Origin: Desulfuromonadaceae bacterium
GTDB lineage: Bacteria > Desulfobacterota > Desulfuromonadia > Desulfuromonadales > JAHYIW01
Length of the DNA stretch: 64,000 nt
Assembly (NCBI GenBank): GCA_019429445.1
Contig: JAHYIW010000012.1
Coordinates: 1 to 64,000 of the forward strand
Direction of reading: 5' to 3'
Part shown: in pieces, positions 38,805 through 42,571 of the stretch
Position numbering within the stretch: position 1 is the stretch's first letter
Layout: each line of letters begins with the position of its first letter
Made by a program: the position numbers and the translations under genes
The notes under the pieces: model-generated
Seen by the model: only the letters and a program-made list of their open reading frames with translations
What the model was told of the DNA's origin: nothing
The model's database searches: none

Positions 38805-38832
38805 TTGACATCCTGGAGTCAGCTGGTATTAA
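38805..38832 (+). promoter_or_regulatory. Sigma-70 promoter of the tetR operon
   Basis: TTGACA (38805-38810) and TATTAA (38827-38832) are separated by 16 nt. The predicted start lies inside the adjacent inverted repeat. Confidence 0.6.
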
Positions 38833-38834
38833 TA

Positions 38835-38858
38835 AAAAAACAGGATGGTCTGTTTTTT
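38835..38858. promoter_or_regulatory. Inverted repeat at the tetR transcription start, likely autoregulatory operator
   Basis: AAAAAACAG and CTGTTTTTT are perfect 9-bp inverted arms around GATGGT. The repeat begins 2 nt after the -10 box and ends just before the ribosome-binding site of the TetR gene. This is a typical repressor position. A terminator-like hairpin is the other reading. Confidence 0.55.
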
Positions 38859-38871
38859 CGGAGGTCGAATT

Positions 38872-39459
38872 ATGGCAACCAAGGGTGAAATCACGCGGAC
38901 AAAAATTCTTGATGAAGCCGCGCAAGTTTTTCAGCGCAAAGGATTCTTGACCACGACTATTAACGATCTGCTGGATGCAACCGGCATAACCAAAGGAAAT
39001 CTCTATTTTCACTTTGCCAGCAAGGAAGAGGTCGGTCTCGAAGTTTTGCGGCAGGCGCAAGCTGCCTTCCGGCTATTTCTGGACGACGCCCTGCACGGGG
39101 ACACCCCCGGAGCGAGGCTGGATAATTTTTTCCGTCATGCCCTGGAGCGAAATCGCAGCAAAGGATTTGTCGGCGGTTGCCTGTTCGGCAACACGGCGCT
39201 CGAAACCTGCGACAATGCGCCACCTTTTGCGGCACTGGTCAGCGAGGTTTTTGCCGAATGGATCGGCAAACTGGAAGAAACGATTCGAGCCGCCCAGGCG
39301 AGCGGCGAGCTCCGTCAGGATCTGCCCGCCGACCAGCTGGCCGAACTCGTGGTGGAAACGATTGAAGGCGGGATCATGCAATCCCGGCTGAAAAAAGAGG
39401 GAGCCCCGCTCAAGCGGGCACTTGACTCATTGCGGGTTCTGCTCGAACTCAAATCTTGA
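38872..39459 (+). CDS. TetR-family regulator, NemR/AcuR-like
   Basis: This 195-residue protein has an N-terminal TetR helix-turn-helix (TRTKILDEAAQVFQRKGF then TTTINDLLDATGITKGNLYFHF, about 9-48). The ligand domain contains GGCLFGNTALETCD with Cys103 and Cys113. The GC-x-x-GN-x-x-x-E signature is shared with NemR/AcuR-type regulators, where a cysteine near this place senses electrophiles or oxidants. I chose ATG 38872 because GGAGG lies 7 nt before it. It heads an operon with the radical SAM and flavoprotein genes and probably represses it through the inverted repeat at its start. The inducer is unknown. Confidence 0.88.
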   Translation: MATKGEITRTKILDEAAQVFQRKGFLTTTINDLLDATGITKGNLYFHFASKEEVGLEVLRQAQAAFRLFLDDALHGDTPGARLDNFFRHALERNRSKGFVGGCLFGNTALETCDNAPPFAALVSEVFAEWIGKLEETIRAAQASGELRQDLPADQLAELVVETIEGGIMQSRLKKEGAPLKRALDSLRVLLELKS

Positions 39460-39500
39460 CACGCACACAAAGAAGATCAGGAAACTACCGGAGAGCTTTT

Positions 39501-40418
39501 ATGAAGATGAACAGCACTGACGACACCTGGTTCACCACCAGCCAAAATGAGCCACGTGGTTATATTCAGCCCCGGCTGCTTGACGAGCTTTGGTTTCACA
39601 CCGGAACCAACTGCAACCTGCGCTGCCCGTTCTGTTTTGAAGGCGCAAGGCCGGGGGACAACCGCATCGAGTTTCTGACCCTGGCAGATGCCCGGTGCTT
39701 TATCGACGAAGCGCTGGAACTCGGGGTCAAAAAGTTTTCCTTCACCGGCGGTGAGCCGTTTGTCAACCCGCAGTTTGTTACCATTTTAGAGACCGCTTTG
39801 GAGCATCGTCCCTGCCTGGTGTTGACCAACGCCACCGAGCCGCTGATGAACCGCATGGCCAAGGTGGTTGGGCTGGCCAATAAGCCGAATCCGCTCAAGT
39901 TCCGGGTCAGCCTGGATCATCCCGACCCGGCCAGACACGACGCGGCACGCGGCACGGGGAATTTCAACAAAGCGCTCGACACGCTGGGACGGCTCCATCG
40001 GGCCGGTTTTGGTGTCTCTATCGCCCGTCTGATGCTTCCGGACGAGGACAGCGCCGTCGTGGATCGCAGCTATGTTCCCTTTTTCCGCAGTGTCGGTGTT
40101 CCCGACGATATCACCATCATCAAGTTTCCGGAATTTCATCTGTCCGGCTCTTCCCATCAGGTCCCGGAGATCACCGAAACCTGTATGAGCCATTATTTGA
40201 GCGCCGAGCAGCGTGCCGCCTTCATGTGTCATTTCAGCAAGATGATTGTGCGTAAAAACGGGCAGTGTGGCGTATATGCCTGTACCCTGGTGGATGACGT
40301 CCAGGGGTACGATCTGGGACCAACGCTGAAGGCCGCCATGGACAGGCGGGTCATGCTCGGTCATCACCGCTGTTATTCCTGTTTCGCCTGTGGTGCCAGC
40401 TGTTCGGAAAACGAATAA
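39501..40418 (+). CDS. Radical SAM protein with cysteine-rich C-terminus
   Basis: The 305-residue protein has the radical SAM cluster motif C38-x3-C42-x2-C45 (CNLRCPFC) and the glycine-rich SAM-binding strand FSFTGGEP (about 75-82). The C-terminus ends in a dense cysteine group (C291, C294, C297, C301), with further Cys in CHFSK and CGVYAC, which suggests at least one auxiliary iron-sulfur cluster as in SPASM/twitch enzymes. Substrate and product cannot be assigned. GGAG lies 8 nt before ATG 39501. It lies 41 nt after the TetR gene and 11 nt before the flavoprotein gene, so all three are probably co-transcribed. Confidence 0.85.
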   Translation: MKMNSTDDTWFTTSQNEPRGYIQPRLLDELWFHTGTNCNLRCPFCFEGARPGDNRIEFLTLADARCFIDEALELGVKKFSFTGGEPFVNPQFVTILETALEHRPCLVLTNATEPLMNRMAKVVGLANKPNPLKFRVSLDHPDPARHDAARGTGNFNKALDTLGRLHRAGFGVSIARLMLPDEDSAVVDRSYVPFFRSVGVPDDITIIKFPEFHLSGSSHQVPEITETCMSHYLSAEQRAAFMCHFSKMIVRKNGQCGVYACTLVDDVQGYDLGPTLKAAMDRRVMLGHHRCYSCFACGASCSENE

Positions 40419-40429
40419 AGGGGTTCATC

Positions 40430-42571
40430 ATGTCGAATCGCTGGAAAAAAACCCTGGTTATCATGGCCATTGCCGTACTGGTCGTGACGTTCTTTGTTTT
40501 CGATCTGCAGCGCTACCTGACTCTCGCCGAACTGAAGACCCGTCAGGCGGAGTTCCAGGACTTCTATGCGGCTCATCGACTGCTGACTTTGGGGCTTTAT
40601 TTTGTTCTTTATGTCCTGGTAACCGCCTTGTCGCTGCCAGGGGCGGCGGTCATGACCCTGGCCGGTGGCGCACTGTTCAGTTTCTTGCCTGCGCTGGTGG
40701 TGGTCTCCTTCGCCAGCAGCATCGGCGCAACCCTGGCCTTTCTGGTCAGCCGCTTTCTGTTGCGCGACTGGGTGCAAAATCGCTTCCACGATCGGCTGGC
40801 GGCGATCAACCGGGGGGTTGAAAAAGAGGGGGCGTTCTACCTGTTCACCCTGCGGCTGGTGCCGATCTTTCCGTTTTTCATCATCAACCTGGTGATGGGG
40901 CTGACCCCGATGCGCACGTTGACCTTTTACTGGGTCAGTCAGGTCGGTATGCTCGCGGGGACCGCCGTGTATGTCAACGCCGGCACCCAGCTCGGTCAGA
41001 TCAACAGCCTGGGCGGGATTCTTTCTCCCGGCCTGCTGTTTTCCTTTGTCCTGCTTGGTGTTTTTCCGCTCATTGCCCGCAAGGGGGTCGAGATCATGAA
41101 GAAACGTCAGACGCTCAAGAATTTTCCTCAGCCGAAAAAATTTGCATATAACGTTATCGTCTTCGGCGCCGGTTCCGCCGGGCTGGTTTCGAGTTACATC
41201 GCTGCGGCGGTCAAGGCCAAAGTTGCGCTCATCGAGAAGCACAAGATGGGGGGCGACTGCCTCAATACCGGTTGCGTCCCGAGCAAGGCGCTGATTCGCT
41301 CTGCAAAGATGCTCGCCTACGGTCGCCGCGCCACCGAGTTCGGTTTCCGCAAGACTGAAACCGAATTCGAGTTCGGCGAAGTGATGGAGCGGGTGCAGCG
41401 GGTGGTGGGCAAGGTCGAGCCGCACGATTCGGTGGAGCGTTATACCGGACTGGGGGTTGCCTGCATACAAGGTGATGCGCGTATCACCTCGCCCTACACG
41501 GTCGAGGTGGATGGCCGTACCCTGACGACGCGCAGCATCATTGTTGCCACAGGTGCCTCGCCATTTGTGCCGCCGATCCCCGGACTTGAGCAGGTCGATT
41601 ATCTGACCTCTGACAACCTCTGGCAACTGCGGGAGTTGCCGCAGCGTCTGGTGGTGCTGGGCGGTGGGCCGATCGGTTGCGAGATGACTCAGGCGTTCGC
41701 CCGCTTCGGCGCACAGGTGACGCAGGTTGAAATGGGTGAGCAGATCATGGGGCGGGAAGATCCGGATGTTGCCACATTTGTCCGTCAGCGTTTCGAGACC
41801 GAAGGGGTGAATGTGCTGACCGGCCATGCGGCCAAACAGGTCCTTACCGAAGACGGGGAACACATCCTCGTCTGCGCACACCAGGGTGAGCAGGTACGTG
41901 TCCCATTTGACCGGATTCTGGTCGCGGTTGGTCGACGACCGAACGTCAAAGACTTTGGTCTGGAAGAACTGGGGGTGCGATTAAGTGACCGTGGCACAGT
42001 CGAGACCGACGGCTTTCTGCGCACCAACATCCCCAACATCTTCTGCGCCGGAGATGTCGCCGGGCCGTACCAGTTCACCCATACCGCCGGGCATCAGGCC
42101 TGGTACGCCAGCGTCAATGCCCTGTTCGGCGATTTCAAAAAGTTCCCGGTTGACTATCGGGTCATCCCCTGGGTCACCTTCACTGATCCGGAGGTCGCCC
42201 GGGTCGGCCTGAATGAAACGGAGGCCAGGCAGCAGAATATCGCTCACGAGGTCACCGTGTTCGAACTGGCCGAACTGGATCGCGCCATTGCCGAAAGTGA
42301 AGACCATGGCTGGCTCAAGATCATTACCCCGCCCGGCAAGGATAAAATCCTTGGTGTCACCATCGTTGGCACTCACGCTGGCGACCTGCTCGCCGAATAT
42401 ATTCTGGCGATGAAGCATGGTCTCGGCCTGAATAAAATTCTCGGCACCATCCACCCCTATCCGACCCTGGCCGAGGCCAACAAGATGGCGGCCGGGGAAT
42501 GGAAGAAGGCACATGTCCCGGAAAAATTGTTGGCCTGGGTGGAGAAATTCCATGCCTGGCGACGCAAGTGA
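40430..42571 (+). CDS. Fusion of VTT/TVP38 membrane domain and FAD disulfide oxidoreductase
   Basis: This 713-residue protein has two parts. Residues 1 to about 225 are a VTT (TVP38/DedA-like) membrane domain with the RLVPIFPFFIINLVMG motif and several membrane helices. From about 238 a complete pyridine nucleotide-disulfide oxidoreductase follows: FAD loop GAGSAG (246-251), redox pair C277-x4-C282 (GGDCLNTGCVPSK), NAD(P) loop VLGGGPIGCE, second FAD motif FCAGDVAG, and C-terminal HPYPTLAE with the His-Glu pair. It lacks the HMA domain and C-terminal Cys-Cys of true mercuric reductase, so that name would be wrong. A membrane-tethered thiol or quinone reductase is plausible. Confidence 0.9.
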   Translation: MSNRWKKTLVIMAIAVLVVTFFVFDLQRYLTLAELKTRQAEFQDFYAAHRLLTLGLYFVLYVLVTALSLPGAAVMTLAGGALFSFLPALVVVSFASSIGATLAFLVSRFLLRDWVQNRFHDRLAAINRGVEKEGAFYLFTLRLVPIFPFFIINLVMGLTPMRTLTFYWVSQVGMLAGTAVYVNAGTQLGQINSLGGILSPGLLFSFVLLGVFPLIARKGVEIMKKRQTLKNFPQPKKFAYNVIVFGAGSAGLVSSYIAAAVKAKVALIEKHKMGGDCLNTGCVPSKALIRSAKMLAYGRRATEFGFRKTETEFEFGEVMERVQRVVGKVEPHDSVERYTGLGVACIQGDARITSPYTVEVDGRTLTTRSIIVATGASPFVPPIPGLEQVDYLTSDNLWQLRELPQRLVVLGGGPIGCEMTQAFARFGAQVTQVEMGEQIMGREDPDVATFVRQRFETEGVNVLTGHAAKQVLTEDGEHILVCAHQGEQVRVPFDRILVAVGRRPNVKDFGLEELGVRLSDRGTVETDGFLRTNIPNIFCAGDVAGPYQFTHTAGHQAWYASVNALFGDFKKFPVDYRVIPWVTFTDPEVARVGLNETEARQQNIAHEVTVFELAELDRAIAESEDHGWLKIITPPGKDKILGVTIVGTHAGDLLAEYILAMKHGLGLNKILGTIHPYPTLAEANKMAAGEWKKAHVPEKLLAWVEKFHAWRRK

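Follow-up and report, generated by a model that had tools for sequence, protein, structure and literature searches.

Two radical S-adenosylmethionine (SAM) routes to carbon-arsenic bonds, oxo-arsenosugar biosynthesis and arsinothricin biosynthesis, are described in one review (PMC12159101). The arsenosugar route is an adenosylation, the arsinothricin route transfers a 3-amino-3-carboxypropyl group (PMC12159101, PMC8552651), and arsL alone, expressed in E. coli, gives hydroxyarsinothricin from As(III) without ArsM (PMC8552651). Here we analyse a three-gene operon encoding a TetR regulator, a radical SAM protein (P0002) and a fusion of a VTT membrane domain with a flavin oxidoreductase. It lies in a 64,000-nucleotide stretch of a Desulfuromonadaceae bacterium (assembly GCA_019429445.1, contig JAHYIW010000012.1, positions 1 to 64,000, forward strand), which we call the window. 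We suggest, with a probability of about 0.6, that this operon is a reduced arsenosugar-type unit in which another radical SAM family replaces ArsS and probably transfers a 5'-deoxyadenosyl group to trivalent arsenic. A literature search, largely without reach into subscription literature, returned no account of any radical SAM family for arsenosugars besides ArsS.

The operon and its radical SAM protein

The genes are separated by gaps of 41 and 11 nt. A sequence-only reading had already given all three, with coordinates and gaps, correctly, and its domain assignments for the three proteins are confirmed by Pfam matches. The features are as follows.

39501..40418, + strand: radical SAM enzyme P0002, 305 aa, proposed as a non-orthologous substitute of ArsS (Pfam Radical_SAM, 71 bits)
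39612..39635, + strand: CX3CX2C for the SAM-binding 4Fe-4S cluster, residues 38/42/45, the Cys invariant in 45 sequences
40227..40403, + strand: putative C-terminal auxiliary-cluster region, C243-C301, with cysteines conserved in the alignment
40430..42571, + strand: VTT membrane domain plus flavin pyridine-nucleotide disulfide oxidoreductase, 713 aa (P0003), domains above cut-off
38872..39459, + strand: TetR_C_13-type regulator, 195 aa (P0001, trimmed), TetR_N and TetR_C_13 above cut-off
38837..38856, + strand: putative TetR operator-like inverted repeat AAAACAG-N6-CTGTTTT, like the boxes before tetR of relatives
38805..38832, + strand: putative promoter-like TTGACA (38805-38810), N16, TATTAA (38827-38832), a consensus match only, read by eye

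According to its sequence, P0002 is a member of an unnamed family. In line with the sequence-only reading, it fits no curated family seen: of its 39 NCBIfam matches, the 25 best all stay under their cut-offs. The best score listed there, 89 bits to the Rv1681-family model NF049973 (residues 29-207), is far under the cut-off of 380 and leaves the C-terminal third of P0002 unmatched. ArsL does not appear among the same 25 matches; similar to the P0002 family it is a radical SAM enzyme adjoining ArsM, and it differs in having 428 aa and only three conserved Cys (PMC8552651). Membership in ArsS itself is refuted at the level of sequence. The ArsS model (TIGR04167, cut-off 300) gives 52.3 bits for P0002 and 36.6 bits for its homologue from locus L063, and DUF3641 (PF12345), present in both ArsS proteins scanned, is absent from P0002 and from both of its relatives scanned.

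C243, C261, H288, C291 and C294 are invariant in the 45 aligned sequences, one of which is the window's; C301 is kept in at least 90%, and C297 is not conserved. Fifteen ArsS proteins have C235, C250, H286, C287, C290 and C298, in an order similar to this C-terminal set. All three genes of the operon are under purifying selection by their nonsynonymous and synonymous rates (dN and dS), with dN/dS of about 0.18 for the radical SAM gene and about 0.20 for tetR (both versus locus L012), and about 0.08 for the fusion (versus L014).

Gene neighbourhoods and exchange with ArsS

The family is patchy: its gene was found in 5 of 58 genomes in the search of relatives (the own genome counted) and in 4 of 395 genomes of the phylum, where the own one is again counted and two of the matches reach no more than 31-33% identity. 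Scanning named genomes gave 110 relatives, of which 80, with 50-84% identity to P0002, were kept; they come from Desulfuromonadales, Verrucomicrobiota/Kiritimatiellae/Lentisphaeria, Omnitrophota, Uabimicrobium, Nitrosomonas, Nitrosospira, Methylotenera, gammaproteobacteria and others.

Clustering of the neighbouring open reading frames (ORFs) gave, besides radical SAM proteins, four leading groups: AS3MT-type methyltransferases (ArsM), VTT/oxidoreductase proteins, and the glycosyltransferases TIGR04283 and TIGR04282. Using profiles built from these same loci, so that other types may escape them in ArsS and control regions, and score thresholds set by ourselves, we counted markers at 83 loci; L026 and L030, identical to the L013 and L016 loci, and L014, which holds a radical SAM remnant, were left out. 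Twenty stretches of 20 kb at round coordinates, 19 from family genomes and one from the ArsS genome G014, served as controls. At least one marker was present at 73 of the 83 loci versus none of the 20 controls, in which every single marker count was zero. VTT and oxidoreductase occurred together at 41 loci versus 0/20, and the co-occurrence with the radical SAM family, named as a check by the sequence-only reading, is thus upheld. ArsM was counted at 53 loci, TIGR04282 at 50, TIGR04283 at 50 and either glycosyltransferase at 53. Taken over the whole family, 63 of 83 loci have ArsM or a glycosyltransferase near the radical SAM gene, as in an arsenosugar-type cluster.

Distribution of the markers depends on the lineage. 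Both ArsM and TIGR04283 are found at 30/30 Nitrosomonadaceae/Methylotenera-type loci, ArsM or a glycosyltransferase at 23/23 gamma/alpha/other loci, and ArsM at 10/14 Verrucomicrobiota-type and other loci; the Desulfuromonadales-type loci, including two 'Deltaproteobacteria' metagenome-assembled genomes, have VTT and oxidoreductase at 10/16. Among the 77 loci with a clustered radical SAM gene, 31 have ArsM directly upstream on the same strand, in most cases with an overlap or a gap of at most 10 nt by our ORF starts, and 29 have the VTT-oxidoreductase group directly downstream.

The methyltransferase representative scores 354 bits to PDB 5evj, an arsenite methyltransferase, and stays under the NCBIfam arsenite methyltransferase cut-offs (best 185, cut-off 263); all 49 clustered methyltransferases match this AS3MT-type representative at 49-100% identity. 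For TIGR04283 the representative has 194.6 bits (cut-off 182), and for TIGR04282 the representative from L091 has 112 bits, under the cut-off of 134, while the L190 protein has 208 bits, above it. Genes of MTA (methylthioadenosine) phosphorylase type accompany 6 of the 83 loci, and the two examined are narrowly above the MTAP cut-off.

The most direct link to ArsS comes from two relatives. The operon at L171 encodes TetR, an AhpD-like and a Crp-like protein, TIGR04169 (187 bits), ArsS (360 bits), the VTT-oxidoreductase fusion and DUF547; in L172 the genes follow each other likewise, though only a remnant is left of Crp and a weak piece of DUF547, and an AS3MT-type ArsM lies a few kb away. Both loci come from the same taxonomic order as the window, and their fusions, 82-83% identical to the window's, nest within the clade of fusions from P0002-family loci in a tree of 19 fusions (support 97/95 for a group of 8 rows and 99/98 for one of 13; midpoint root, L074 being a long branch). 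Therefore, the regulator and the fusion are combined with ArsS in one version of this operon and with the P0002 type in another. A AAACCGAACGGTCTGTTTTT-like box precedes tetR in 8/8 intact cases, the window and both ArsS operons included, which supports the reading of the operon as a conserved unit; by eye, the left half of the window's box is the most deviant of the eight. ArsS above cut-off is present in 119 of 395 phylum genomes versus 0 of 40 genomes with the P0002 family, two of the 40 holding only homologues of 31-33% identity. In 20 ArsS regions, hand-picked from the 119 genomes with preference for near relatives and high scores, VTT and oxidoreductase lie near ArsS in 8.

Altogether P0002 resembles ArsS in operon position, TetR with its operator box, VTT/oxidoreductase partners, size and the radical SAM core. 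The nearly full-length profile match to ArsS (98.7%) was not taken as a sign of special kinship, as the ArsS profile fits five unrelated radical SAM proteins about as well over the core (94.7-98.0%). The general redox module proposed by the sequence-only reading is not borne out: the neighbours, namely ArsM, arsenosugar glycosyltransferases and, in the operons of two relatives, ArsS, indicate organoarsenic biosynthesis.

Possible reaction and alternatives

Because of the operon place, the partners and the mutual exclusivity with ArsS, adenosylation of trivalent arsenic appears to be the most likely reaction, and P0002 is likely to work in an ArsS-like way. We propose that the N-terminal 4Fe-4S cluster would cleave SAM, and the 5'-deoxyadenosyl radical would be joined to trivalent arsenic. 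With ArsM at hand the acceptor would be dimethylarsinite, otherwise perhaps imported methylated arsenic or arsenite itself. The product would be a 5'-arsinoyl-5'-deoxyadenosine, which the phosphorylase and two glycosyltransferases, where present, may convert to arsenosugars. Going by its domains, our guess for the fusion is a reductant of arsenic or of a carrier thiol at the membrane, an aid in moving the product or its lipid across, or both. TetR presumably represses the operon from 38837-38856 and may be released by an arsenical or a metabolite.

We may go further and suggest, quite tentatively and with less than even odds, that this is a second, independently recruited radical SAM family forming C-As bonds, mutually exclusive with ArsS, in ammonia oxidisers, methylotrophs and Verrucomicrobiota-type bacteria; in ArsM-less Desulfuromonadales it would act directly on arsenite or imported methylarsenic, giving an undescribed organoarsenical, with the VTT-oxidoreductase fusion as a membrane partner. 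If true, nitrifiers and anaerobes with this third C-As radical SAM family would join the likely producers of organic arsenic, and its gene could serve as a marker in environmental surveys. It would also be a natural swap experiment, in which two radical SAM scaffolds lead to one reaction.

Several observations weigh against an arsenosugar-type function, above all in the window's own lineage. Neither ArsM nor an arsenosugar glycosyltransferase is present at any of the 16 Desulfuromonadales-type loci or in the 24-kb part of the window examined, and the window genome, 99.99% complete, has no AS3MT-type ArsM match (E <= 1e-10). With no ArsM in its locus or genome, the window's organism shows no visible source of methylated arsenic. 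The arsenosugar-cluster genes are not in the window's operon, and the genome-wide search, which covered ArsM and TIGR04283 and did not seek TIGR04282, found TIGR04283 once, on a different contig (C14), at 185-186 bits against a cut-off of 182. The 'arsenosugar' names of TIGR04282 and TIGR04283 are themselves based on co-occurrence, and MTAP could merely recycle 5'-deoxyadenosine. No marker is found at 10 of the 83 loci; seven of these are stretches under 10 kb, an eighth (L012) has a broken fusion, and L053 and L062 are long. The absence of ArsS from 40 genomes is statistically weak, these genomes being related and completeness being given for only 7 of them. With the same profiles, ArsM or a glycosyltransferase is seen in just 3 of the 20 ArsS regions, 12 of which are without the VTT and oxidoreductase pair, and the core of P0002 is no closer to the ArsS profile than to other radical SAM proteins.

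As to ArsM, its lack is usual even among ArsS carriers, since 14 of 21 ArsS genomes, hand-chosen in favour of near relatives and high scores, gave no match and 7 did, three of them strongly; the profile was built from loci of the P0002 family and other types may escape it. TIGR04283 is above cut-off in 14 of 17 family genomes, including all 10 of Desulfuromonadales type. We did not use this as support: only 1 of 14 control genomes offers a background without the family, and the window genome's copy does not stand among arsenic genes. The Omnitrophota genome with L045 has DUF547, ArsM, TIGR04283 and TIGR04282 in a row, on a contig other than that of the radical SAM locus. Two ArsM-like matches (G280:C1:476022-476531 and G413:C400:11020-11481) have one in-frame TGA each, perhaps a selenocysteine codon.

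The best surviving alternative, which we consider rather unlikely, keeps the operon in organoarsenic metabolism and gives P0002 another step or bond, either a different alkyl radical placed on arsenic, as by ArsL, or a modification after adenosylation. The failure of P0002 in the ArsS model and its lack of DUF3641 leave room for this, the formation of hydroxyarsinothricin by ArsL without ArsM sets a precedent (PMC8552651), and in one plasmid cluster a pair of radical SAM genes is adjacent. The same step is favoured by ArsS taking this place in the operon of two relatives and by none of 40 genomes carrying both ArsS and the P0002 family.

It seems still less probable that organoarsenic work is confined to ArsM-bearing lineages and that the Desulfuromonadales operon has been repurposed as a stress or redox unit making no arsenical. 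The empty ArsM and glycosyltransferase counts at the 16 loci speak for such a change, and so does the search of 15 such genomes, 12 of which gave no ArsM match at the same E-value, two gave 41-49 bits and one 160 bits; AhpD-like, Crp-like and cytochrome P460 neighbours look stress-related to us. Against it, ArsS itself stands beside the AhpD-like gene in the corresponding L171 and L172 operons, two thirds of the ArsS genomes searched (14/21) are likewise without an ArsM match, and P0002 keeps its catalytic and auxiliary cysteines under purifying selection.

A SPASM/twitch-type role in maturing a peptide or protein is very improbable: SkfB, a maturase of ribosomally synthesised and post-translationally modified peptides, and SuiB are among the best structural matches of the predicted P0002 model (mean pLDDT, a per-residue confidence score, 91.4; closest folds SkfB and BlsE), but a predicted ArsS model (pLDDT 87.0) yields the same top two, the mostly tight gene packing leaves little room for a precursor gene (ORFs of at least 80 aa searched), and the neighbours are arsenic-type genes. 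Fold comparison, being this generic, was dropped as a discriminator, and solved structures searched with the profiles of the two families gave other radical SAM enzymes only, matched mainly in the core.

Fusion, regulator and further loci

The fusion has VTT at 76 bits and both Pyr_redox_2 and dimerisation domains above cut-off. The two oxidoreductase domains are shared with the mercuric reductase MerA and with dihydrolipoyl dehydrogenase, and we take its GGDCLNTGC for a redox-pair motif and HPYPTLAE for a motif of the MerA/dihydrolipoyl dehydrogenase type. It differs from these enzymes in the attached VTT domain and in having no Cys near the C-terminus. MerA (TIGR02053) was rejected at 394.8 bits versus a cut-off of 454.45, and the lipoamide dehydrogenase score, 394.5 bits, is also below its cut-off of 408.8. 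The organoarsenical reading, if true, would give this fusion a likely context.

On contig C30 of the window genome (L025:7882-9378) there is a free-standing oxidoreductase with 60% identity to the flavin part of the fusion, followed by a gene that by eye reads as a carbonic anhydrase. In congener G001 the syntenic VTT-oxidoreductase gene is broken (L012:5980-7238), an intact fusion stands at L014:6700-8800 with the radical SAM gene only as a remnant, and a second, intact radical SAM copy is found on a short contig (L013).

For TetR, a start at 38872, after GGAGG at 38860, is more likely than one at 38845, and its relatives begin alike (MxxKGE or similar) in agreement with 38872. The sequence-only reading had taken the protein for a NemR-like two-Cys switch sensing electrophiles or oxidants. 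The signature cysteine of GC-x-x-GN (GGCLFGN) is indeed present in 8/8 TetRs compared; the second one (CDNAPP) occurs in the window and its congener only (2/8), Ser being there in the other six, and two-cysteine sensing is not supported. The inverted repeat claimed for the operon start is present at 38837-38856, directly downstream of the TTGACA/TATTAA hexamers, and is the sole exact match of AAAACAG-N6-CTGTTTT within the window; allowing up to 2 mismatches adds one site (2 mismatches) versus 0.34 expected. The consensus promoter scan does not list the hexamer pair, because the second hexamer ends in A.

Fused proteins apparent at L010 and L011 were dismissed, the long frames around the matches being, by eye, frame artefacts of GC-rich DNA. 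On Marinobacter plasmid pHP-187 (L128:11806-12895) an unannotated radical SAM homologue is split between two frames and is followed by a sodium:solute symporter. The cluster on Roseomonas plasmid p546-1 (L129) has two adjacent radical SAM genes, the other one being nearest to the TrsS model (100 bits of 490), together with TIGR04282, two DUF547 genes, VTT, a flavin oxidoreductase and a phosphonate-type ABC transporter. By clustering, a cytochrome P460-type protein adjoins the radical SAM gene at L016:8891-9385 and, on its downstream side, in L013; another, by Pfam match, lies about 5 kb from it at L053:4504-4992. Nine Nitrosospira/Nitrosomonas-type loci (L056, L060, L063, L066, L068, L069, L072, L082 and L105) have a periplasmic binding protein gene near radical SAM, with apparent phosphate-type ABC transporter genes alongside in nine loci; the one binding protein scanned is PBP_like_2, and these loci perhaps point to a link with arsenate/phosphate uptake.

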